The notes below the pieces were generated by a model. It was not told the DNA's origin and searched no databases. It saw only the letters and a program-made list of their open reading frames with translations. From a virus, in IMG/VR virus record IMGVR_UViG_3300038701_002343, positions 1 to 41,913 of that record: DNA of 41,913 bases; one strand, given 5' to 3'. Both the position numbers and the translations under genes were made by a program. This document shows positions 3,983-37,991 of this stretch, piece after piece. Position 1 is the stretch's first letter; each line of letters begins with the position of its first letter.

Positions 3983-4470
3983 TGTGGAAGTTTATTTTTT
4001 TCCTGCTTATACTCGTGATCGCTATGGGCTGCACTGCTCCACAGGTGATCACCGATACAGTGGTGAAGGATTCGGTCATTGTCCGGGAGGTTCCCAGAAT
4101 AGTGGAGATTCCCGGACAGACTATCTACAGCCCCTCTGTTAATCTGGATTCCCTGGTGAAGGTGATCCAGTCCGGGGTAAAGTCTGAGGTCATCAATAAG
4201 ACCCTGACCTATACCGATCCCGACACACAGCTGCAGGTAGGCCTGATTCTCGATCAGATGGGTAATCTATTCGCTGTATGCGAGCAACAGGAGCAGACCA
4301 TCAAGATCATGGAGCGAGAAATCGAACGCCTCCGAACCATCAACACCACCAAAGAAACAATCATAAAACCCACATTCTGGCAACAAGCCAAAGACTACCT
4401 AATGATCATCATCGTAGTAGTCATAGTAATCGTGGTAATATCAGCACTAAGATCCTTAGGTTTCTTTTAG
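3979..4470 (+). CDS. Putative single-molecule spanin (lipoprotein with C-terminal anchor)
   Basis: A 163-residue protein with an N-terminal signal ending in a lipobox (IAMGC, Cys about residue 18), a periplasmic region containing a coiled-coil-like stretch (about 95-125), and a very hydrophobic C-terminal helix (about 138-155, IIIVVVIVIVVIS). An outer-membrane lipoprotein end plus an inner-membrane C-terminal anchor in one chain is the u-spanin design known from phage T1 gp11. It would fuse the two membranes in the last step of lysis. It directly follows the holin and lysin genes. Confidence 0.6.
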   Translation: MMWKFIFFLLILVIAMGCTAPQVITDTVVKDSVIVREVPRIVEIPGQTIYSPSVNLDSLVKVIQSGVKSEVINKTLTYTDPDTQLQVGLILDQMGNLFAVCEQQEQTIKIMEREIERLRTINTTKETIIKPTFWQQAKDYLMIIIVVVIVIVVISALRSLGFF

Positions 4471-4580
4471 CATCAGCAAATCATACCATCAGCACATCAG
4501 CACATCATACCATCATCACATCACATAATCACATTTTCTTTGTCCTCCTGATTCACCACTTTCTCTGCTACATTTCCCTT
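4471..4580 (+). repeat. CATCA-rich low-complexity tract between spanin and next gene
   Basis: About 65 bases (4470-4535) made of imperfect repeats such as CATCAGCACATCAG and CATACCATCATCACATCAC. Similar CATCAC-rich tracts occur at about 15727-15757, 16447-16456 and 20157-20190. The motif TGTCCTCCTGA follows at 4541. No gene is visible here; the frame through it is open but has no plausible protein composition. Confidence 0.6.
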
Positions 4581-16456: not shown

Positions 16457-17650
16457 CTAATCCCGCACCATAAATCTACTTATCCTTAAACTCTCCGTCT
16501 TTTTCCGTGCTTCCATGATCTTTACATACTTTTCGGTTTGCTTCGTAGTCGTGTGCCCCATAAAGCTGGCAAGTACTTCCAGCTTCCCGTCATGCTCCAT
16601 ATACAAGGTGGCAAATGTTTCCCGGGCGATCTGAAAGCATACAGGCATCTTGATTTCAAGCAGGTCAGACACTTCATTGATGTACTTATTCTGCTTCTGC
16701 TCCGACATGCTACAGAACAGAGGAAACAAGCCTACCTCGTCCATCTCATCAGCAATCAAATCCACCGCCTCAGCGGTGATCGGCATCCGTACCCTCGTGC
16801 CAAATCGTTTGGTCTTATGCGGTACGAAATCAAAATTATCACCATCGATCCAGTCCAGTGTAAACCGCCTCAGGTCACCATGCCGAATGCCCGTCACACA
16901 GGAAAACAAAAATGCCCGCAAGACTATCCTATGCGAAGGATGGATCAGCGGCTCTTGATAAAAATCCCAAAACTGTAAAAATTCATCTTTGGTTAGTGGC
17001 CGGTACCTGCTGACCTCAGCCTTAGCCTTAAAATGATCGTAAGGATGGACAAACTCTATCCCATCCACTTTCTTAGCCTGATTAAGGTACGTCTTGAAAT
17101 TCTTATGATGTGCCCACCGCCCATTCAGCGTTTTGGCCCCTGTCTTTCGTGCCAGGTAAGTATCGAATAGCTGAGCAGTCCTGTTATTAAGATGCGAAAA
17201 AAGTAAATGATCATTCCAGGCTTCTAACGTGTTAAGCGTGCTCGTATGGTTCCGTTTGCTCTGATCATTGATCTCCCCCTGCCTATACCTGAGCAACATC
17301 TTCTTACGATAATACTCAATGACCGAATCCCTGTTAAGGTTAGAATAATATTCCTTCAAAAAAACAGGCAAAGAAAGTACCGTTTCCTGCAGGCGATGCC
17401 TAACAAAGATATCATTCGCTTTCCCCTCAGCAGCTGCCAGAATTAGATTATGATCATTATACCTGGTATCATCCTTAGATAGACTTAAGCACCGCCCCTT
17501 ATCCCTGTCAAACCTTTTCACCGGCCAGTAAAGCTTCAGATCAATATCCTTTCGCCTCCTGTCCACAATCACCCGGAGATACAACAGCACCGTCCCATCC
17601 ATCCTGACCCGTTGCGGATTAAAAACAATCTTTGCGCTACAATTTACCAT
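16457..17650 (-). CDS. Tyrosine recombinase, phage integrase
   Basis: A 397-residue protein, taking the ATG at 17650; a TTG 42 bases upstream is possible. The N-terminal arm-binding part (VRMDGTVLLYLRVIVDRRRKDIDL) and a SAM-like core-binding domain (about 90-200) are of the Bacteroidota type. The catalytic domain shows the first Arg in TGIRHGDL, Lys in PHKTKRFGTRV, the second Arg in QIARETFATLY, His in FMGHTT and the nucleophile Tyr in EKYVKI. The usual HxxR histidine is replaced by Gln. It would integrate and excise the prophage; attP probably lies in the flanking DNA but I cannot define it. Confidence 0.88.
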   Translation of the reverse strand: MVNCSAKIVFNPQRVRMDGTVLLYLRVIVDRRRKDIDLKLYWPVKRFDRDKGRCLSLSKDDTRYNDHNLILAAAEGKANDIFVRHRLQETVLSLPVFLKEYYSNLNRDSVIEYYRKKMLLRYRQGEINDQSKRNHTSTLNTLEAWNDHLLFSHLNNRTAQLFDTYLARKTGAKTLNGRWAHHKNFKTYLNQAKKVDGIEFVHPYDHFKAKAEVSRYRPLTKDEFLQFWDFYQEPLIHPSHRIVLRAFLFSCVTGIRHGDLRRFTLDWIDGDNFDFVPHKTKRFGTRVRMPITAEAVDLIADEMDEVGLFPLFCSMSEQKQNKYINEVSDLLEIKMPVCFQIARETFATLYMEHDGKLEVLASFMGHTTTKQTEKYVKIMEARKKTESLRISRFMVRD

Positions 17651-17828
17651 GTTGAAACAATGTTGTAACCACCCATTCAAATTACCTCCCAAACCTTATG
17701 CTCAGAATGACCCCCAGCACCGTTTTTCACACAATGCAGGGGGATTTGGTTTTATTGGTACACCCGGAAGGTGTCCTAAAAACCTTTCATTCACAGCTGT
17801 TTACAGATGTAAGTTGAAACCAGGTTGG
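17651..17828. other. Intergenic region between integrase and repressor
   Basis: 178 bases without a gene. It should contain the integrase promoter, reading leftward. CCCCCAGC near 17712 and GCAGGGGG near 17737 form a weak inverted repeat. No attP core can be identified from this sequence alone. Confidence 0.5.
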
Positions 17829-20478: not shown

Positions 20479-20587
20479 CCGCCTGCACTGTATTCATGGG
20501 CTGGACCCGGTAAGAAAGAAAGTAGACACACAGAAGCTGCAGGTGCTCGAAGATCGCCTGCAGCGCATGGAAGGGGGAGAAGTATGA
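20348..20587 (+). CDS. Early hypothetical coiled-coil protein, 79 residues
   Basis: An N-terminal Gln/Pro/Ser-rich stretch followed by a coiled coil (LQKELERFSLEVEIQQTYNRL, then TQKLQVLEDRLQRMEGG). The stop overlaps the methyltransferase start (ATGA), which supports it as real. Its first 131 bases overlap the 20206 gene in a different frame. A later start is possible but no ATG is available in the overlap-free part. Confidence 0.45.
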   Translation: MKSQQPTKNPSQPSTEKLNPLNPATLQKELERFSLEVEIQQTYNRLHCIHGLDPVRKKVDTQKLQVLEDRLQRMEGGEV

Positions 20588-22152
20588 AGAATTCATATAT
20601 AACAGCAACAGATCAGTTTTGCGGGGCTGGCGGAAGTTCACAAGGAGCCAGGAAGGCTGGTGTAGAAGTTAAAATGGCATTGAACCACTGGAAGCTTGCT
20701 ATCGAAACACACAACACTAATTTTCCAGATACCCTCCATGACTGTACCGATATATCAGCATGTGACCCCAGAAGATATCCCAGCACAAACATTCTGATAA
20801 CTTCTCCGGAGTGCACCACACACAGCCCTGCAGGTGGTAACCGGCACAATAAGGTAAAACAATCAGTTGACCTTTTTGACAATGGCCTAATCGATCCATC
20901 TTCAGAAAGAAGCCGTGCCACGATGTGGGATGTTTGCAGATTTGCAGAATACCATGATTATGAAATCATCATAGTAGAGAACGTGGTCGAAGCAAAAACC
21001 AGGTGGGTGCTATTTGAAGTCTGGCTAAATGCGATGCATAAGCTCGGATATAATCACAAATGCCTTTACTTGAACTCTATGCATTTTTGGCCAACGCCAC
21101 AGAGCAGAGACAGGATGTATGTCGTTTTTTGGAAAAAAGGAAACAAAGCACCTGACCTGGACTATACACCAAAGGCATTTTGCACATGCTGTGGGAAGGA
21201 TGTAATGTCAGTACAAAACTGGAAAAATCCCTCACGGAAATTTGGAAAGTACAGAACCCAGTATGTATATGTATGCCCATCAGATGGGACTATTGTCACG
21301 CCTTACTACTACGCTGCTTTCAATGCTATAGACTGGTCAGATATTGGACAGAAGATAGGAGAGAGGAAAAAATCACTATCCCCTAATACGATGAACCGCA
21401 TCCAGTGGGGCCTTGATAAATATGGGGATGATCCGCTGATAATTCAAACAAGGCAAGTATCCGGTTTAGGATCAAGAGTGAAGAACAGCACCACTAACCC
21501 TATAGGCACCCAATGTACCGAATTAAGTCACGAAGTGGCTACGCCTATCATCGTAAAAGGTGAGCACACATCACTTCCCGGATATGTAAAGAAAATAGGA
21601 GACCCATTTATGACCCAAACTGTACGGCAGACATCCTCTCTGGTGATGCCCTGGATAATAGAAATGAACAAAACAGGAGAGGCCAAACCATCAGCAGAAA
21701 CTATGTCTACGATCACGGCAGGAGGGATCAATCATGCCTTGTTAACAAGTCCATTGATTGTTCAAAACAAAGGCCAAAGCAAGTCAAAACCCGCCACTCA
21801 ATCAATGCCTGCTCAAACTACAATGATCAATAACGGGATAGTTTCTCATCAGGCATGGAGTAGTTTTATCCAGTATTATTACAAGAGCAATCAATCCTCA
21901 AAGCTTTCTGAGCCTATAGGGACAGTGACAACAAATGACAGGTCATACATAGTCAATTACCAAAAACCACGCATAGAAGATTGCTATTACAGGATGATCA
22001 AGGCACCAGAGGTTAAAGCCTCAATGGCTTTCGATACAGATTATATAATCCTTGGAAACTCTAAAGAACAGGTGAAGCAATGCGGAAACGCTGTAACACC
22101 ACCAGTACAGGAGTGGATCATCAAACAATGCGTAAAATCTTTAGAGGAATGA
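20584..22152 (+). CDS. DNA (cytosine-5) methyltransferase
   Basis: A 522-residue protein. Motif I is DQFCGAGGSSQGARKAG (about 10-27, SAM binding). Motif IV carries the catalytic Cys in SPECTTHSPAGG (about 77-88), an unusual form of the canonical PPCQ. Motif VI is ENVVEAK (about 137), motif VIII QSRDRMYVVFW (about 173), and motif X GNAVTPPVQEW lies near the end (about 500). The long segment between VIII and X is the target-recognition region. It modifies cytosines in phage DNA, probably to evade host restriction. No cognate nuclease is seen nearby. It starts inside the previous gene's stop. Confidence 0.85.
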   Translation: MKNSYITATDQFCGAGGSSQGARKAGVEVKMALNHWKLAIETHNTNFPDTLHDCTDISACDPRRYPSTNILITSPECTTHSPAGGNRHNKVKQSVDLFDNGLIDPSSERSRATMWDVCRFAEYHDYEIIIVENVVEAKTRWVLFEVWLNAMHKLGYNHKCLYLNSMHFWPTPQSRDRMYVVFWKKGNKAPDLDYTPKAFCTCCGKDVMSVQNWKNPSRKFGKYRTQYVYVCPSDGTIVTPYYYAAFNAIDWSDIGQKIGERKKSLSPNTMNRIQWGLDKYGDDPLIIQTRQVSGLGSRVKNSTTNPIGTQCTELSHEVATPIIVKGEHTSLPGYVKKIGDPFMTQTVRQTSSLVMPWIIEMNKTGEAKPSAETMSTITAGGINHALLTSPLIVQNKGQSKSKPATQSMPAQTTMINNGIVSHQAWSSFIQYYYKSNQSSKLSEPIGTVTTNDRSYIVNYQKPRIEDCYYRMIKAPEVKASMAFDTDYIILGNSKEQVKQCGNAVTPPVQEWIIKQCVKSLEE

Positions 22153-25100
22153 ATAAACCTTTCAAATATACCCTAGAAGTAGGCTCCAAAAAACACCACT
22201 GCCCCGGATGTCAGAAAAAGTCCCTGGTAAGGTATGTATATACCGGTACGCGGGATTATGTAGGGGAGAACTTTGGCAGGTGCGACAGGGAGAATAACTG
22301 CGGATACCATCTGGTTCCGGAGAAAGATATTTCATCCCCCCCCAACCCCCCAACTAAAAAAGATATTCCCGAGCCGAAAACGCTAAAACCTACCCCAGAA
22401 TACCTCGAAAGTCTCAAAAACCAACAGTCTGGGAATCTTGCCCGGTTCTGTATGGGTAAGCTGGGAATGACCAAAGAACATTTGGTGAAATGGGGACTGT
22501 TTTCCTCATGGAAATTCGATGCCTTTGTTTTGTCCAATTTGGCAGGGGAGGCAGTTAATGTGAAGTTTGTGGTCTATACACCGGATGGCAAGCGGGACAA
22601 ATCCGAAAAGCCTGACGGCTCGCCCGCCTACTTCCCGCACTACCTGGGCAAGTCCTATCTGAAAAAGCAGGGCATCCTTATTGATCCCAAACAGCTGGAA
22701 GAATGGCAAGACCATTATAAGTTTGACCGCTGCTTCTATGGTGCCCACTTATGGGACCCTGAGCAGAACACCTGCCTGGTGGAATCTGAAAAGACCGCCC
22801 TGATCGCCTCCTGGTTTTTCCCCGGTGTGAACTGGCTCGCTACGGGTGGCAGCAATGGGATGAAGTACGAGCAGTTTGAGCTATTCCATGGATACAAGGG
22901 CCGGATTAGAAATCTGGTGGACAATGACCCTGCAGGCTATGAGAAGTCTAAGACCATACAGTGGCTGGACTTGCTCGCTGATCTCAGGGATGATCCGGAG
23001 GATATCATGTCTATCAATATTTTTCCTTCCAGTCCCGAAGGATGGGACATCGCCGATGCCATCATTAAGGATGGATACAGAGATAAAGACAAGTTCTACC
23101 ATGAGCTTAACCATGCCATGGACTGCCGCACAGACTACAGCATCGATGAAAGCACCGGAGAGGTGACAGCCCAGCCGGTCAAAAGGATCAGGCCGGACGA
23201 AAAGGAATACAAGCGCGCCACACAGGTGGCCGAGCGGATCTATGTAGACCAGGTTCCTATCATGCTGAGCAGTGAGGTCAATACCTTCACCATGATGGAG
23301 TCTCTCGCCTGCTTCGGAGAGCGGGGGCGCAGTATTGCCCGGAAGATACAGTCTGTGGTCAATATAGAACCTGAGACCACGGATGCTGCCTATAATCTGG
23401 CCATTGGCACACCGCATAAGGATGCAGGCTATTTCTTTGCCAAGGCTAAAGCGCATGGGGTAGATATCCGGTATATCAAGACCGCCAGATCAGAAGCCGC
23501 CGAAGGTGCTGAGGGCATAGATGCCAATGAGATATCCGTTACCTGGCCGGATGGTATGGAAAAGATGGAGGGCTTTGACCATAAGGCACTGATGCGGGAT
23601 GTTGCCAAGTATAATTTCATCGAATACAAGAACTGCACCTGGTACGGGATCTTCACAGGGAGCGAAAACAAGGGAAACCTTTCCCTGCACTTTGACCGGA
23701 TTAGTAATTTTACCATTCGGCCCCTGTACCTGATCAAGTCCAAGACCGATCCAAAGCGACTCTTTGAGATCAAGAATATATTTGGCATCAAGTACATCAT
23801 AGACATTCCGGCAAAGGCCCTGGTAAGCATGACCGAGTTTCAGGTATTCTGTGAGGGGCAGGGAAATTTCCTTTTCGAAGGGTCCAAGGTGCAGTTTACC
23901 AAGATCAAGCGCAAGCTGTACGACCATACCAAGGATGCCGAAGAGGTGAAAATGCTCGGATGGCAGGATGAGGGGTTCTATGCATTTGCGAACGGTGCCT
24001 TTCGAAAGGATCACTTTGACAAGGTAGATACCTATGGGATCATTCGCCACCTGGTGGAGAAGAACGACAGGGAGGCTGAGGAGAAGTACTTTTTCATCCC
24101 GGCGATGTCCAGCATATACAAGGACGAGAAGGACCAGTATGACATGGAGAAGAAGTTTGTCTATGTGAAGCGGCCTGATGTCAAGTTTGCCGACTGGGCC
24201 AGACTGTTTTATAATGTTTTCGGGGACAATGGCATGATAGGCATGGCCTATTACCTGAGCAGCCTTTACCGGGACATGATATATGCCAGGTTTAAGTTTT
24301 TCCCGCACCTCTTCCACTTTGGCCCACCCGGTACGGGCAAGAGTACCATGTGCTGGTCTATCCAGTACCTCTTCGGCTTGGAAAGAAAGCCATTTATGCT
24401 GAACGCTGGTACAGCTGTAGCCTTTCACCGGACATTTGCCCAGTTCAGAAATGCCGTCATCTGGTTTGATGAGTACAATAATAATATGGACATGAAGCGG
24501 GTGCAGGACTTAAAGTCTGCCTATGATGGTGCCGGGCATGTGAAGTCAGAGTGGAGCCAGACGGGAGGCACCAGCAACAGGACGAACACCACTCCTGTGG
24601 AATCTGCCTGTAATATCTCAGGGCAAGAGCTTCCCATCGCTGACAATGCGCTTTTCAAAAGGTGCATCCTGCTGCAATACTACCAGACCACCTTTTCTGA
24701 TGAAGACAAGGAGCAGCTCAGTAAGCTGCAGAAGCTACAGGAGAAGGGCCTCAGCCACCTGACCGGAGCCATCACCATCTTTCGGGAGAAGATGGAAAAG
24801 GAATATTTCCCGACCTTCGATAAGGTAGAGAAAGAGATCCTTACCGCCCTGCAGGATGATCCCACCATCGAGAGCCGGATCGTTAAGAACATCTGTGTAG
24901 TGGCCACTACCTACCGTATCCTAAAGGACGAACTCAATTTTCCCTACAGCTGGGACGACTTCATGGACGTGATGCTGCGCAATGTCCGATCGCAAAACGC
25001 CCTGATCAGCAATGCCAAGGAGACCAACCAGTTTTGGGACATGGTGGAGTACTGTATCTCTGAGGGCGAGCTTAAGGATGAGGAAGATTTCAAGATCGAA

Positions 25101-25499
25101 GACAGGCAGATGGTAAAGGTGATCGTAGACCGAAAGACCGTAGAGCGAAACCTGGGCGGAATGCGAAAGGTGCTGTATATCCGTCTGGCCACTGCCCACC
25201 CTAAGTACCAGGAGGCACTGCGCAAGCAGGGAGAAAAGAAGGGCATGGACAAAGGCTCCCTGGCGCACTACCTCAGCCACAGCCCCGGATTTATCGGGAT
25301 GGTAAGCAGTACGAGGTTTAAAAATGGAGACCGGAACTTTGCCAGCTCAGCCTATGCCTTTGAGTACAGGTACCTGGAAGACGCCGGCTATAACTTCGAC
25401 CGTGTCAACTTCCAGGTAGACGATGAAGACCAAAACCCGGAGGATGATCCGGAGCAAGTTTTCGAAAAAAAGGAAGGAGAAAATGATGAATTGTTCTAA
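22149..25499 (+). CDS. Primase-helicase: zinc finger, TOPRIM and P-loop ATPase
   Basis: A 1116-residue protein. ATG at 22149 lies in the methyltransferase stop (ATGA). Residues 18-21 (CPGC) and about 43-51 (CDRENNCGYH) form a DnaG-like zinc finger. A TOPRIM core follows: LVESEKTALIASW (about 208-220) with the conserved Glu, and LVDNDPAGYEKS (about 256-267) with the paired Asp. The C-terminal ATPase has Walker A GPPGTGKSTMCW (about 726-737) and Walker B AVIWFDEYNNN (about 769-779). It primes and unwinds DNA at the phage fork. C8 and C6 runs at 22336-22350 encode a Pro-rich linker after the zinc finger. Confidence 0.88.
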   Translation: MNKPFKYTLEVGSKKHHCPGCQKKSLVRYVYTGTRDYVGENFGRCDRENNCGYHLVPEKDISSPPNPPTKKDIPEPKTLKPTPEYLESLKNQQSGNLARFCMGKLGMTKEHLVKWGLFSSWKFDAFVLSNLAGEAVNVKFVVYTPDGKRDKSEKPDGSPAYFPHYLGKSYLKKQGILIDPKQLEEWQDHYKFDRCFYGAHLWDPEQNTCLVESEKTALIASWFFPGVNWLATGGSNGMKYEQFELFHGYKGRIRNLVDNDPAGYEKSKTIQWLDLLADLRDDPEDIMSINIFPSSPEGWDIADAIIKDGYRDKDKFYHELNHAMDCRTDYSIDESTGEVTAQPVKRIRPDEKEYKRATQVAERIYVDQVPIMLSSEVNTFTMMESLACFGERGRSIARKIQSVVNIEPETTDAAYNLAIGTPHKDAGYFFAKAKAHGVDIRYIKTARSEAAEGAEGIDANEISVTWPDGMEKMEGFDHKALMRDVAKYNFIEYKNCTWYGIFTGSENKGNLSLHFDRISNFTIRPLYLIKSKTDPKRLFEIKNIFGIKYIIDIPAKALVSMTEFQVFCEGQGNFLFEGSKVQFTKIKRKLYDHTKDAEEVKMLGWQDEGFYAFANGAFRKDHFDKVDTYGIIRHLVEKNDREAEEKYFFIPAMSSIYKDEKDQYDMEKKFVYVKRPDVKFADWARLFYNVFGDNGMIGMAYYLSSLYRDMIYARFKFFPHLFHFGPPGTGKSTMCWSIQYLFGLERKPFMLNAGTAVAFHRTFAQFRNAVIWFDEYNNNMDMKRVQDLKSAYDGAGHVKSEWSQTGGTSNRTNTTPVESACNISGQELPIADNALFKRCILLQYYQTTFSDEDKEQLSKLQKLQEKGLSHLTGAITIFREKMEKEYFPTFDKVEKEILTALQDDPTIESRIVKNICVVATTYRILKDELNFPYSWDDFMDVMLRNVRSQNALISNAKETNQFWDMVEYCISEGELKDEEDFKIEDRQMVKVIVDRKTVERNLGGMRKVLYIRLATAHPKYQEALRKQGEKKGMDKGSLAHYLSHSPGFIGMVSSTRFKNGDRNFASSAYAFEYRYLEDAGYNFDRVNFQVDDEDQNPEDDPEQVFEKKEGENDELF

Positions 25500-25509
25500 A
25501 AAAGAAATC

Positions 25510-26325
25510 ATGAAAATAGAAACAAACCTATATAGAGATCATTTCCAAAACTTTAAGAGGTATAATATACCAAAGGCTCAGCTAATTATTGCAGATATTC
25601 CATATAACATAGGGAAAAACGCATATGGATCAAATCCTAGCTGGTATATAGGTGGAGATAATAAAAATGGATCTTCTGAATTAGCTGGAAAAGAGTTTTT
25701 TGATACTGACAAAGATTTTAGACCTGCAGAGTTTATGCATTTCTGCTCTCAGATGATGAAAAAAGAGCCAAAGGAAAAGGGGAAAGCCCCATGTATGATT
25801 GTTTTTTGTTCTTTTGAACAGCAATTTCCTCTTATTGAATTAGCTAAGAGATACGGTTTGATGAAATATATAAATCTTGTCTTTAGGAAAAACTTTTCAG
25901 CTCAGGTGCTTAAGGCTAACATGAGAATTGTAGGTAATTGTGAATATGCCTTACTATTCTACAGGGATAAATTACCTAAATTCAATAACCACGGCAAAAT
26001 GGTAATGAACTGCATAGATTGGGAGAAAGACATGAAAAGTGAATTCAAAATACACCCCACTCAAAAACCTGTGAAATTGATTAAAAGACTAATTGAAATT
26101 TTCACGGACGAAGGTGAAGTAGTAATTGATCCAGTGGCTGGGAGCGCAAGCACTTTGGTAGCAGCAATAGAGAGCGGAAGGAAAAGTTATGGGTTTGAAA
26201 TCAAAAAAGATTTTCATACCAAAGGTGTTGAATGGGTTTCCAGAATTATACAAAGGAAATATGATATAGAAAAATTTGGTTTTTCAAAAACCGAGATTAA
26301 TAACCAATCACCAACGTTATTCTAA
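25510..26325 (+). CDS. DNA adenine/cytosine-N4-type methyltransferase
   Basis: A 271-residue protein. The catalytic motif IV appears as ADIPYNIG (about 28-35), a DPPY variant with Ile at the second position. The SAM-binding motif I comes late as DPVAGSASTLVAAIESGRKS (about 212-231), with FEIKK next. This IV-before-I order is that of the beta class, which methylates exocyclic amines. ATG at 25510 avoids overlap with the primase; ATG at 25483 is also possible. Base composition is much AT-richer than the primase before it, suggesting separate acquisition. Confidence 0.8.
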   Translation: MKIETNLYRDHFQNFKRYNIPKAQLIIADIPYNIGKNAYGSNPSWYIGGDNKNGSSELAGKEFFDTDKDFRPAEFMHFCSQMMKKEPKEKGKAPCMIVFCSFEQQFPLIELAKRYGLMKYINLVFRKNFSAQVLKANMRIVGNCEYALLFYRDKLPKFNNHGKMVMNCIDWEKDMKSEFKIHPTQKPVKLIKRLIEIFTDEGEVVIDPVAGSASTLVAAIESGRKSYGFEIKKDFHTKGVEWVSRIIQRKYDIEKFGFSKTEINNQSPTLF

Positions 26326-26369
26326 TGATCCGCTCTGAAAATAATTTTATCCCCGCAACCCCCATTTTC

Positions 26370-26630
26370 TGTTCCAACTGTTCCACATGTTCCAACAAAA
26401 TTAAAAAACCTTATTTAAAGGCTATAAAGGGACATTGTATCAAAAAAAGAAGGGTGGATTTGTTGGAACAGCGTTGGTCAGTGTTGGAACGTGTTGGAAC
26501 ACGTTGGTTTTGTTGGAACAGCGTTGGAACAGGTTTTTTTGATAAAAACCGCCTCCATAGGCTGGAATCAAAGATTTTTCGGTTTGTTGGAACAGTTGGA
26601 ACAGTTGGAACGCATTTCGTGTGTTGGAAA
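26370..26630. other. Iteron array, candidate replication origin
   Basis: Three tandem 9-mers on one strand (TGTTCCAAC at 26370, TGTTCCACA at 26379, TGTTCCAAC at 26388), then about 65 bases of AT-rich DNA, then seven GTTGG-headed words at 26462, 26473, 26483, 26493, 26503, 26512 and 26523, spaced 9-11 bases, and after a gap three exact tandem GTTGGAAC(A/G) at 26586, 26595 and 26604, with a partial copy at 26623. Opposed iterons flanking an easily melted stretch behind a primase-helicase gene is the architecture of a phage or plasmid origin. Confidence 0.65.
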
Positions 26631-26863
26631 AAAAAGAGGTAAAAATCGGCATAAAACGGGTGAAATCCATCCGTGAGCTACAGGAGGATACCAGTCAGGG
26701 ATGGAAAAGGAAACTCGGACAGCTGTATTTTCAGCAGCTCGAGGATGGAAACATGGTACCACGAGTGGTCAGCGAAAGAACAAATGGCCGCTGGGTGCAG
26801 CATATGATCGGTAAAGGTTTGCTGTGGATAGCAGAGGGTGGTGGTGTTTGTGAGATGAGTTAG
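26621..26863 (+). CDS. Hypothetical basic protein, 80 residues or fewer
   Basis: Conserved-looking small protein, rich in Lys, Arg and Trp (RVKSIRELQEDTSQGWKRK, then RWVQHMIGKGLLWIAEGGG). No ATG is available: GTG at 26621, TTG at 26624 and GTG at 26657 are candidates, the first two lying in the last iteron-like word. A later GTG would avoid reading the iterons as protein. The role is unknown. Confidence 0.5.
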   Translation: MLEKKEVKIGIKRVKSIRELQEDTSQGWKRKLGQLYFQQLEDGNMVPRVVSERTNGRWVQHMIGKGLLWIAEGGGVCEMS

Positions 26864-35139: not shown

Positions 35140-35669
35140 TGGCCTATCAGACACTAAAAAAGAACAAAACCAGGGACAATGCTCCCGGCCTGCGAAAGAA
35201 CATCTACTTGGCAGAGCGGGATTGGTTTGATTCCCTGGCGGTGCCTGTGGCTCCCTTTGAGAATCCGGGGGATTCGCTAAGGATCACGGCAGACCACACC
35301 TTTAAGACAGGTTTTGGATGGATAGGGATGCACACCACCCTGGCTACAGCTGAGCTGGTGGCTGAGATGGTGGGCGAGCGTGAATCACGCACCAATAATC
35401 CATCCCTAACAGCACAGCACCCCGGCCTTACGGCAGAGGTGATCGAGTTTGTACAGCAGATGAAGTCAGGAGACTGGATCACACTTGTGGAGACCCTTGC
35501 CGGTGAATACATCCAGCTCGGAGAGGATGGCCTCGAATGTGAGGTAATGTACTCATTCAACTCTGGAAGAGTGGACGGTGGCTATCAGGGAGTGACGGCT
35601 ACGATCAGTAACTATGGTAAGCCATATTTCTATGAGGGAGTATTGACCATGTTCCCTGATCCGGTATAA
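35139..35669 (+). CDS. Putative major tail tube protein
   Basis: A 176-residue beta-rich protein with no membrane segments, downstream of the capsid gene. The central helix (AEVIEFVQQMKSGDW) between strand-rich halves and the ending YFYEGVLTMFPD fit the tail-tube barrel seen in siphovirus tube proteins, which also form head-tail joining rings. The tape measure is far away in this genome, so this is tentative. Confidence 0.4.
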   Translation: MAYQTLKKNKTRDNAPGLRKNIYLAERDWFDSLAVPVAPFENPGDSLRITADHTFKTGFGWIGMHTTLATAELVAEMVGERESRTNNPSLTAQHPGLTAEVIEFVQQMKSGDWITLVETLAGEYIQLGEDGLECEVMYSFNSGRVDGGYQGVTATISNYGKPYFYEGVLTMFPDPV

Positions 35670-35716
35670 TGCATGATATTTAAAATTGACAGCAGATAGT
35701 AGTAGGTAGTTATTTT

Positions 35717-35770
35717 GGGTTTATGGGGAAACGGCTCTGACATTGTCAGGGTCGTTTTTTTTATGTCCTC
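35717..35770 (+). repeat. 54-bp repeat containing a terminator, copy 1
   Basis: Identical to 38591-38644. It begins GGGTTTATGGGGAAACGG and contains the terminator stem ACGGCTCTGACA/TGTCAGGGTCGT with a three-base loop and eight T (35731-35762), and ends ATGTCCTC. The two copies flank the AT-rich fibre insert and are 2874 bp apart. Confidence 0.95.
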
Positions 35771-35832
35771 CTGAATTTTGTTATTAATAATGAAATTGGT
35801 GCCACCAATATCAAGACATAAAAATTACGAAA

Positions 35833-37038
35833 ATGGCAGAAATAGAAATCACCCAAGGAACGGGATATTTTGCACTAAACGGGAAAAGGTACCCGAAAGG
35901 CAACTATGAGGTAGAGCCACATAATGATAAAGTCTATATCTCTAACATGAACAATAAACCGGTTATTGTGGCCGACCGATCGGATTTTTACAAGGTGGTG
36001 GAAGGTTCCAATGTCTATTTTGCCACCATGGACTTATTAATGGCTGAGTTTGACGCGGCTTTTAGCATAGGTGGGGGTGACGGCGAAGGGGTCACAAATG
36101 TAATAACTGGCGAAGTAGCAACAGGAGACATTTTACTGGACAATATAGCATCAAGAATTTACGGAGAAACAACTCCATTAACTGGAAATATTACCATAGA
36201 TGAAACAGGTTCTATAATAGGAGGTTCAGCAATCATTTATCACAATGATTCCTCTGAACCATTATTCTTAGGTTATTCAAGCCGTGTGAAAATATATGGT
36301 AACTATGAATTAAATGTAGACAACACAATAATGATTGCGAAAAATGGTGCAAATACCTTAGGAGTAGTTATTACACAAGATAGTGAACTAGATTATTATT
36401 TAAAATTTTTATTAGGTGATTATATATCAATACCACATAATGAAAGCATAAATTTTGAAAGAACGGATGCATTCGCCTTTTCTTTTGATATGAAAACAAC
36501 AATCTACAATAATCAAAAACCCTTTATAAATAAAGCTCTTCCATCGGCATCATTTTTTAAAGGATATGAAATAAAAACATTAACAACCTCTGGAATATTA
36601 CAATTTGGTTTAATATCTAATAATGTAGATACAAATCTTATGGTAGTTAGAAGCACAAACGCAATACCATTAGATACTTGGACAACGATACATGTCAGCT
36701 ATGATGGATCATCAAATGCTAGCGGAGTTAAGATATGGTTTAATAAAGTTTTAGAAACTAATAATGTAATACAAAACAATTTAACAGGTACAATAACAAA
36801 TTCAGTTCCTTTATTAATTGGAAGAGATGAAGCCAATTTAAATAAGTTCAATGATGACAATATGGATAACTTGAAAATATACGATCAGGCATTAACACAG
36901 TCGAATGTTGATAATGATGATGTAATTCCAATTCATTCATATAATATGAATCAAGTAAACATACAAGACAGTATAGGGGGGCTTGATGGGACAGCAACTA
37001 GCATGGACGAAAGTAACATAAAAATAAGAACGTTATGA
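35833..37038 (+). CDS. Tail fibre-like protein with LamG-type domain
   Basis: A 401-residue protein. The first ~85 residues (FALNGKRYPKGNYEVEPHNDKVYISN) look like a virion anchor and have the GC level of the phage core. From about residue 90 onward the DNA becomes strongly AT-rich. Residues about 190-360 form a LamG/concanavalin-like sandwich (DYISIPHNESINFERTDAFAFSFDM, then TWTTIHVSYDGSS, then VPLLIGRDE, then MDNLKIYDQAL). It probably binds surface glycan. A chimera of a resident anchor with a transferred binding domain is likely. Confidence 0.6.
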   Translation: MAEIEITQGTGYFALNGKRYPKGNYEVEPHNDKVYISNMNNKPVIVADRSDFYKVVEGSNVYFATMDLLMAEFDAAFSIGGGDGEGVTNVITGEVATGDILLDNIASRIYGETTPLTGNITIDETGSIIGGSAIIYHNDSSEPLFLGYSSRVKIYGNYELNVDNTIMIAKNGANTLGVVITQDSELDYYLKFLLGDYISIPHNESINFERTDAFAFSFDMKTTIYNNQKPFINKALPSASFFKGYEIKTLTTSGILQFGLISNNVDTNLMVVRSTNAIPLDTWTTIHVSYDGSSNASGVKIWFNKVLETNNVIQNNLTGTITNSVPLLIGRDEANLNKFNDDNMDNLKIYDQALTQSNVDNDDVIPIHSYNMNQVNIQDSIGGLDGTATSMDESNIKIRTL

Positions 37039-37991
37039 GGAATTTCTTTAGCCTTTTATCGGATGTATCAAGCAATCAAATTGATAATAAAAATTATGTT
37101 TTTACATATTCAAACATAACTGGTATAGGTGAGGAGTCAGGAGTATCAAGGCGTGATCCAAGCGATATTTTTAAAATTGGGAATACTTATTATGTATATT
37201 ATAGTTATGAAGGTACAGGTATAACACCTCCTGGTTATAATTCAACAGTTTATTTAGCAAAATCAACAGACACAGTAAGTTGGACTGAATTAGGGGAAGC
37301 GATACCGAGAGGAACTACAGGGCAATGGGATGAGTATTCCACATTTACCCCAAACGTTTTGATTTTGGATAATATAGTGTACGTGTATTATACAAGTGTT
37401 GATGCGCCTTTTGATTTGGCCACCTCAAAAACAAGAATGGGAGTTGCATGGCAAACAGTTGAAAATATAGAGACATTCCCTTACATAAAGAGTATAGATA
37501 ACCCTTTGATAGAACCTAGTGAAACTGCTTCTGATTTTGATAGTATGAGAATTGATGATGCACAAATGATTATACAAGGTAGTCAGATATATTTCTATTA
37601 CAAGGGAAGGAAACTAGGAGAGACACCAAATCAAACAAGACATGGCTTAGCAATTTCAGCAACACCATTAAGTGGTTTTGTCAAGTATTTTGATAATCCT
37701 ATTTATAACAGCGGTCATGAAGTAATGATATTTAGATATGGGTCACATTTAAGGTCTCTTATATCCCACCAGGGATTTGATGCATCTTTACACGATTCTG
37801 TCTTAGATAGTGCTAATGGATTAACTGATTGGAATATTGTAAAACCTTCAATTACACCTCCGTATGCTGGCGGATATTATAGAGAGGATAATTTCACTAA
37901 TCAGTACAATAGTAAGAATTTAACTTGGGGTATATCTACTGATTTTGGTGTAGATGGACTTCCTCATTTAAGGAAATTTATAGTTTCATAA
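37035..37991 (+). CDS. GH43/GH117-like five-blade propeller, putative glycan hydrolase
   Basis: A 318-residue protein. Repeated blades start with RRDPSDIFKIGNTYYVYYS (about 37-55), then FTPNVLILDNIVYVYYTS, then IDDAQMIIQGSQIYFYYKG, then NSGHEVMIFRYG. This DP-then-YYVYY pattern is that of GH43-related enzymes, whose catalytic residues are two Asp and one Glu; the Asp of RRDPSD, Asp of IDDAQM and Glu of GHEV are candidates. It overlaps the LamG fibre gene by four bases, and lies in the AT-rich insert, so a receptor-degrading fibre component is likely. Confidence 0.6.
   Translation: MRNFFSLLSDVSSNQIDNKNYVFTYSNITGIGEESGVSRRDPSDIFKIGNTYYVYYSYEGTGITPPGYNSTVYLAKSTDTVSWTELGEAIPRGTTGQWDEYSTFTPNVLILDNIVYVYYTSVDAPFDLATSKTRMGVAWQTVENIETFPYIKSIDNPLIEPSETASDFDSMRIDDAQMIIQGSQIYFYYKGRKLGETPNQTRHGLAISATPLSGFVKYFDNPIYNSGHEVMIFRYGSHLRSLISHQGFDASLHDSVLDSANGLTDWNIVKPSITPPYAGGYYREDNFTNQYNSKNLTWGISTDFGVDGLPHLRKFIVS

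Follow-up and report, generated by a model that had tools for sequence, protein, structure and literature searches.

Where does replication of this phage start? The window, by which we mean the whole analysed stretch of virus DNA (41,913 bases), contains at positions 26370-26631 an array of short repeated words, which a preliminary description had proposed as a candidate phage origin. The features that bear on this proposal are listed by position, with their strand where they have one.

20584-22152: C5-cytosine methyltransferase gene, upstream of the primase-helicase gene
22080-25499, + strand: gene for a fused primase-helicase-DNA-binding protein of 1139 amino acids, the proposed initiator
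25014-25415, + strand: C-terminal domain of that protein (residues 979-1112), the proposed word-binding domain
25423-26325, + strand: N4/N6 DNA methyltransferase gene (PF01555, E 1.1e-25; phrog_67)
26325-26642, + strand: 105-codon open frame across the array, with no Pfam or PHROG match; frame not conserved
26370-26396, - strand: reverse word cluster, three words in 9-bp steps
26397-26461: A+T-rich spacer, 65 bp, 74% A+T, the proposed melting region
26462-26531, + strand: forward word cluster, seven GTTGG-headed words 9-11 bp apart
26532-26585: second spacer, about 62% A+T
26586-26631, + strand: forward word cluster, three words in exact 9-bp tandem and one 19 bp further on
26621-26863, + strand: small gene directly 3' of the array, 80 amino acids from a GTG start (from the translations)

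The array and its surroundings

The three tandem reverse words and the roughly 65 AT-rich bases of the preliminary description are present as reported. The words (TGTTCCAAC at 26370, TGTTCCACA at 26379 and TGTTCCAAC at 26388) follow each other in exact 9-bp steps, and only 3.5% of the 65-mers in the window match or exceed the A+T content of the adjoining gap. Where at least ten GTTGG-headed words had been counted, seven of them 9-11 bases apart and three in 9-base tandem, we find eleven with the same spacing, starting at 26462, 26473, 26483, 26493, 26503, 26512 and 26523 in the first cluster and at 26586, 26595, 26604 and 26623 in the second. The successive steps are 11, 10, 10, 10, 9 and 11 bp, then 63 bp, then 9, 9 and 19 bp. 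Reverse words precede the second spacer in many relatives; the window has no such second reverse set.

Every copy of GTTGGAAC (eight) and GTTCCAAC (two) in the whole window lies within the array. The top 7-mer cluster within 350 bp comprises 11 copies, compared with a maximum of 5 in 400 simulations of the whole window (200 Markov-1 and 200 Markov-2) and 5 in the runner-up cluster of the window, making the array the strongest. When one mismatch is allowed, an individual 9-mer is by itself nothing rare (14 seen, 9.6 expected); the rarity of the array is in the clustering of its words, not in their number. GC skew, which had been suggested as a check, does not single out the array, as the cumulative minimum is at 22425, about 4 kb away.

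The array had been placed just downstream of the primase-helicase gene. It is downstream, but not directly behind, because the N4/N6 methyltransferase gene separates it from the end of the primase-helicase gene at 25499. A gene is often inserted between initiator gene and array in different loci: besides this methyltransferase (25423-26325 in the window), the insertions include a PAPS-reductase-domain gene (L018, 7950-8729) and methyltransferases (L008, 7635-9619). The slot before the array is possibly one for DNA-modification genes that act at the origin. Behind the array, the product of the small gene found no match in Pfam or PHROG, and similar proteins are encoded behind the array in L003 (9643-9897), L018, L019 and L042; this small protein might assist initiation. 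Since the window genes include a head protease, a tape measure and a weak terminase match, the record is that of a phage and not of a satellite.

The 105-codon frame was rejected as a gene. An open forward frame spans the array in just 6 of 25 loci, leaving 19 arrays without one, and the spanning frames of the window and of L003 translate to different proteins. On these sequence comparisons we judge the frame to be an artefact, as the preliminary description had done.

Arrays behind related helicases

We listed 35 loci with a helicase of this type, 34 of them with downstream DNA (L012 had just 97 bp). Of the matches listed in the searches, 20 helicase-region and 17 DUF6371-region places were taken, with weaker matches left out. 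Repeats of counted loci were dropped, namely L015, L016, L024-L029 and L052, the last being the same genome as L051 with a helicase ORF of equal length and C-terminus. In the 1500 bp that follow the gene on its 3' side, one 7-mer reaches six or more copies in 18 of 34 loci; background windows do so in 9 of 236 cases, and four of these nine contain the same arrays farther out. With at least five copies, the figures are 23 of 34 and 17 of 236. The same 3' segment beat all 200 shuffles in 20 of the 34 loci, and the downstream count was matched by 5 of 200 shuffles in L019, 3 in L011, 1 in L053 and 5 in L044. Upstream of the helicase-type genes, 1500 bp never held more than four copies of one 7-mer. 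Contrast loci with DUF6371 alone reached at least five copies downstream in 0 of 16 cases and upstream in 4 of 17. Many loci are mutually related, and 14 of 23 proteins remain at less than 50% helicase-core identity.

The preliminary description had suggested looking for the same word array behind primase genes of other Bacteroidota phages. Behind relatives of the primase-helicase the layout indeed recurs with different words (25 tabulated loci). The viral relative L003 (66% identical) has the same layout with GTTTGAC replacing GTTGGAAC, and arrays are also found in Bacteroidota loci, in phages of Flavobacterium and Porphyromonas, and in a phage recorded under Microcystis, accompanying the helicase across otherwise differing gene neighbourhoods. 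In L007, L008, L021, L022 and L055 the array is farther off, 2.9-6.7 kb to the 3' side of the helicase gene. Presence in relatives, on which the earlier proposal also depended, holds for most loci but not for all: no array was found in L017, L050, L058 and L009 (Ingeline), for which the whole genome was searched, and L044 and L049 contain weak words only, those of L049 being degenerate and seen by eye.

Other searches were less productive. Searching viral contigs with single proteins yielded at most one locus each, the first scan of genome contigs yielded none, and a literature search with the word itself retrieved unrelated papers only. An exact 26-mer search of viral contigs for the tandem word found three unrelated contigs (L004-L006), and the tandem word alone is therefore not diagnostic.

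Several arrays differ in placement or company. In L079, a Persicobacter plasmid with a helicase relative that was found later and is outside the 34 loci, word clusters are located 5' of the helicase gene and not 3' (35557-37597). L060 has, some 4 kb upstream of its helicase gene, a second mixed-orientation array (4296-4575; GTTAGAA, 6 and 3 copies), which is perhaps part of another element. The plasmid-like L080 (1008-1068), L081 (3719-4006), L065 (8389-8506) and L078 (993-1099) carry mixed-orientation arrays of words such as TGTCCCA at the 3' end of a RepA-like AAA ATPase gene, just 5' of a DUF6371 gene, a gene pair so annotated in L080 and L081. In these elements the same replicon is maybe divided over two genes. 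The primase-helicase and array of Microcystis phage Mea-Yong924-1 (MZ447863, L007) are close to those of two Sphingobacteriaceae MAGs (L021 and L022). Because the three have TGTCCGA/TGCCCGAA words and flanking DNA in common, the recorded cyanobacterial host may be wrong.

Reverse words, a spacer of 31-83 bp with 67-89% A+T, and forward words follow each other in 24 of 25 arrays, the exception being L059. Among nearby segments of the same length, a median fraction of 0.013 are at least as A+T rich as the spacer (25 loci). According to the layout table, the reverse-spacer-forward unit is doubled in 13 arrays; four further arrays (L003, L014, L019 and L042) are doubled too, with one additional word in between. 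Neighbouring words on the same strand are 8-12 bp apart in 73 pairs, 13-16 bp in none and 17-24 bp in 22, and the words therefore lie on one face of the helix.

The words themselves change. Relatives use, among others, TGTTGGAA, TGTTTGAC, TGTAGGA, TGTCCGA and TGCCCGAA, as well as TGTGGAA, TGTTGTA, TGAGGAA, TGTTGAGA and CTGCTAA, and in array DNA aligned across five close relatives the spacers are mostly fixed and the words vary. A TGT-N-GRAA consensus was derived from 14 sequences with hand-aligned word registers, leaving out L011 and the L059-type CTGCTAA words. Among 14 non-redundant proteins, word similarity tracks the helicase core (r 0.34, permutation fraction 0.0014), whereas its correlation with the C-terminal domain is not significant (r 0.14, 0.15). 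The putative recognition helices of the window protein and L003 are almost identical although their words differ, so recognition of the words may be loose; L018 and L019 mix both words. Different words beside such similar helices argue against a strict code between word and initiator.

The candidate initiator and known replicons

The 1139-residue protein, whose PHROG match is a DNA primase, contains the Pfam domains Zn_ribbon_16 (residues 28-84) and DUF6371 (149-272), followed by a P-loop helicase and a C-terminal winged-helix-like domain. We used a structure model of residues 480-1139 (660 residues; mean pLDDT 69.4, with a poor stretch behind the Walker A motif). Foldseek matched it to SCCmec Cch (5dgk, E 8e-10) and SaPIBov1 Rep (8tch, E 1.8e-6), and VIA gave Z 18.5 and 15.3 for the same two proteins, with MCM helicases next (Z 10.7). 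The predicted fold thus appears to be of the SaPI Rep/Cch type by VIA, with Cch as its best match. The Cch alignment covers 445 residues between positions 31 and 628 of the model at an rmsd of 10.8, a high value that we think reflects domain orientation.

Sequence searches were less telling. Phmmer against PDB sequences found no match to the window helicase, and a profile search of PDB sequences found clamp-loader P-loop matches only. DUF927, the Pfam domain of Cch and SaPIBov1 Rep, has no match in the window protein and one among nine relatives (E 0.0027). The domains of P4 alpha (Zn_Ribbon_Prim, Toprim_3, D5_N, DUF5906 and Pox_D5) are not found above cut-off in the window protein, and the sequence-profile match to alpha is weak (probability 32%).

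AlphaFold2 predicts the C-terminal domain as a helix, a hairpin, two helices and a hairpin (pLDDT 91.7). Searched alone against the PDB, it has no strong match (best Z 7.1), and Cch and SaPI Rep are absent among the matches listed. It modestly resembles DNA-binding winged helices (TcpK on oriT, Z 6.6; Cdc6, 5.7; forkhead), a likeness of the predicted structure that is only suggestive.

The closest counterparts are the replicons of PICIs and SaPIs. According to one paper, SaPI Rep uses its C-terminal domain to recognise iterons directly downstream, and Cch2 was shown to bind, likewise through its C-terminal domain, iterons behind the gene that encodes it (PMC7581432). Another places PICI origins on the 3' side of rep and describes two sets of iterons, one on either side of an A+T-rich region, tested by plasmid replication (PMC6092414). 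To the extent of these accounts, PICI/SaPI replicons and the window have in common an initiator helicase, a primase adjacent or fused to it, an origin 3' of the initiator gene, and two iteron sets around an A+T-rich region. The 3' position applies to our group of loci; in the window the methyltransferase gene intervenes. Whereas PICIs lack a full set of structural genes, the array here is in a 42-kb Bacteroidota phage record with structural genes (tape measure, head protease and weak terminase matches), the primase part is of the Zn_ribbon_16/DUF6371 type, the layout is often doubled, and the words are different. SCCmec differs in having a separate polymerase-based primase and few iterons (AAGTG), as far as the portions cited describe it (PMC7581432).

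P4 (NC_001609) served as a positive control. The cluster that our detector ranks first coincides with the annotated crr, which begins some 45 bp beyond the 3' end of alpha and, read in the sense of alpha, consists of reverse words, spacer and forward words, twice over; the second cluster is the P4 ori. Like the window, P4 has a primase fused to a helicase and reverse-spacer-forward words 3' of the gene. The double array of crr is found in the helicase family as a group, the window lacking the second reverse set. Unlike the window protein, alpha carries the five domains named above, and a further region of P4, ori, is located some 2.1 kb away on the 5' side of alpha.

The Rep proteins of RK2/F/P1-type plasmids are not known to be helicases. 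These plasmids resemble our proposal in that the initiator has a winged helix, a melting region adjoins the iterons and binding is sensitive to the helix turn; their iterons are mostly 17-22 bp, unlike the 9-bp words here, in the parts of the account cited (PMC4980987).

Origin reading and its alternatives

We conclude, with a probability of roughly 0.87, that the array is the replication origin of the phage and that the fused primase-helicase encoded upstream is its initiator. The recurrent layout 3' of homologous helicases, the initiator-like helicase fold and the make-up of P4 crr give this reading, and with it the original proposal, strong comparative support. It is best read as a pri-rep-ori replicon of the PICI/P4/SCCmec type in full-size Bacteroidota phages. 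The replicon very probably works like and is built like those of PICIs, P4 and SCCmec, and we do not call it a PICI; the claim is limited to likeness because in Pfam the P4 alpha domains are not found above cut-off in the window protein and DUF927 is matched in just one of nine relatives. Several findings speak against the origin reading: words that follow the helicase core and not significantly the C-terminal domain, different words beside near-identical putative recognition helices, a GC-skew minimum 4 kb away, arrays that are absent, distant or 5' of the helicase in some loci, a C-terminal domain that has no strong PDB match when searched alone, and the weak profile match to P4 alpha.

We infer that initiation takes place at the array. 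With its C-terminal winged-helix-like domain the helicase would bind the 9-bp words that flank the A+T-rich stretch, and hexamers assembled on the two clusters, reverse and forward, would point towards one another. These hexamers would melt the spacer and achieve their own loading with no loader from the host, and the N-terminal Zn-ribbon/DUF6371 primase part would prime both forks.

The array might instead be an operator or enhancer at which a phage transcription regulator controls the small genes behind it. Its intergenic position, the conserved small gene directly behind, and phased words in both orientations, which also suit cooperative regulators, agree with such a role. We consider it improbable: array and helicase occur together in gene neighbourhoods that otherwise differ, the annotated crr of P4 shares the layout of the array and belongs to a region that P4 needs to replicate, and there is no promoter-like excess near the array (4 versus 5.3 expected, although Bacteroidota promoters differ from the consensus used).

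An RNA element, in which reverse and forward words pair in a transcript, is very unlikely. Compared with 200 shuffles, the strand folds into a structure of unusual stability (z -4.69), but a word present in both orientations gives pairing automatically, and this symmetry explains the stability. A helical phase in which no pair is spaced by 13-16 bp is a property of duplex DNA, and a search of Rfam returned no match.

Short words also cluster at partition sites and integrase arm sites, and the P4 record lists attP arm repeats. Either role seems still more remote here, since the array accompanies the helicase in a wide variety of loci, the integrase gene (16457-17692) is 9 kb from the array, and no partition gene was found among the proteins scanned, which covered part of the ORFs. 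A coding repeat, for which the open frame across the array might speak, or a functionless chance expansion, of which the bare tandem GTTGGAACA runs in the unrelated contigs L004-L006 could be examples, is the least likely of all, because the layout is kept with different words and phased spacing and the frame is not conserved.

Replication origins of Bacteroidota phages seem to be hardly described; a literature search, mostly outside subscription journals, found no description of one with iterons behind a primase-helicase. Reading the array as the origin yields a rule by which such origins can be found from sequence, namely to search the DNA that follows the helicase gene on its 3' side, and it offers a ready test in culturable phages, for example Flavobacterium laban6-1 and 6H. 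It could also supply self-contained replicons for Bacteroidota genetics. It extends to full phages a replicon layout credited to satellites. We tentatively speculate, while thinking it rather less probable than its opposite, that these phages are a reservoir from which the replicons of PICIs, SCCmec and P4 may have drawn, and that in these phages the word drifts around a TGT-N-GRAA core while the layout is kept, giving each lineage an origin code of its own.
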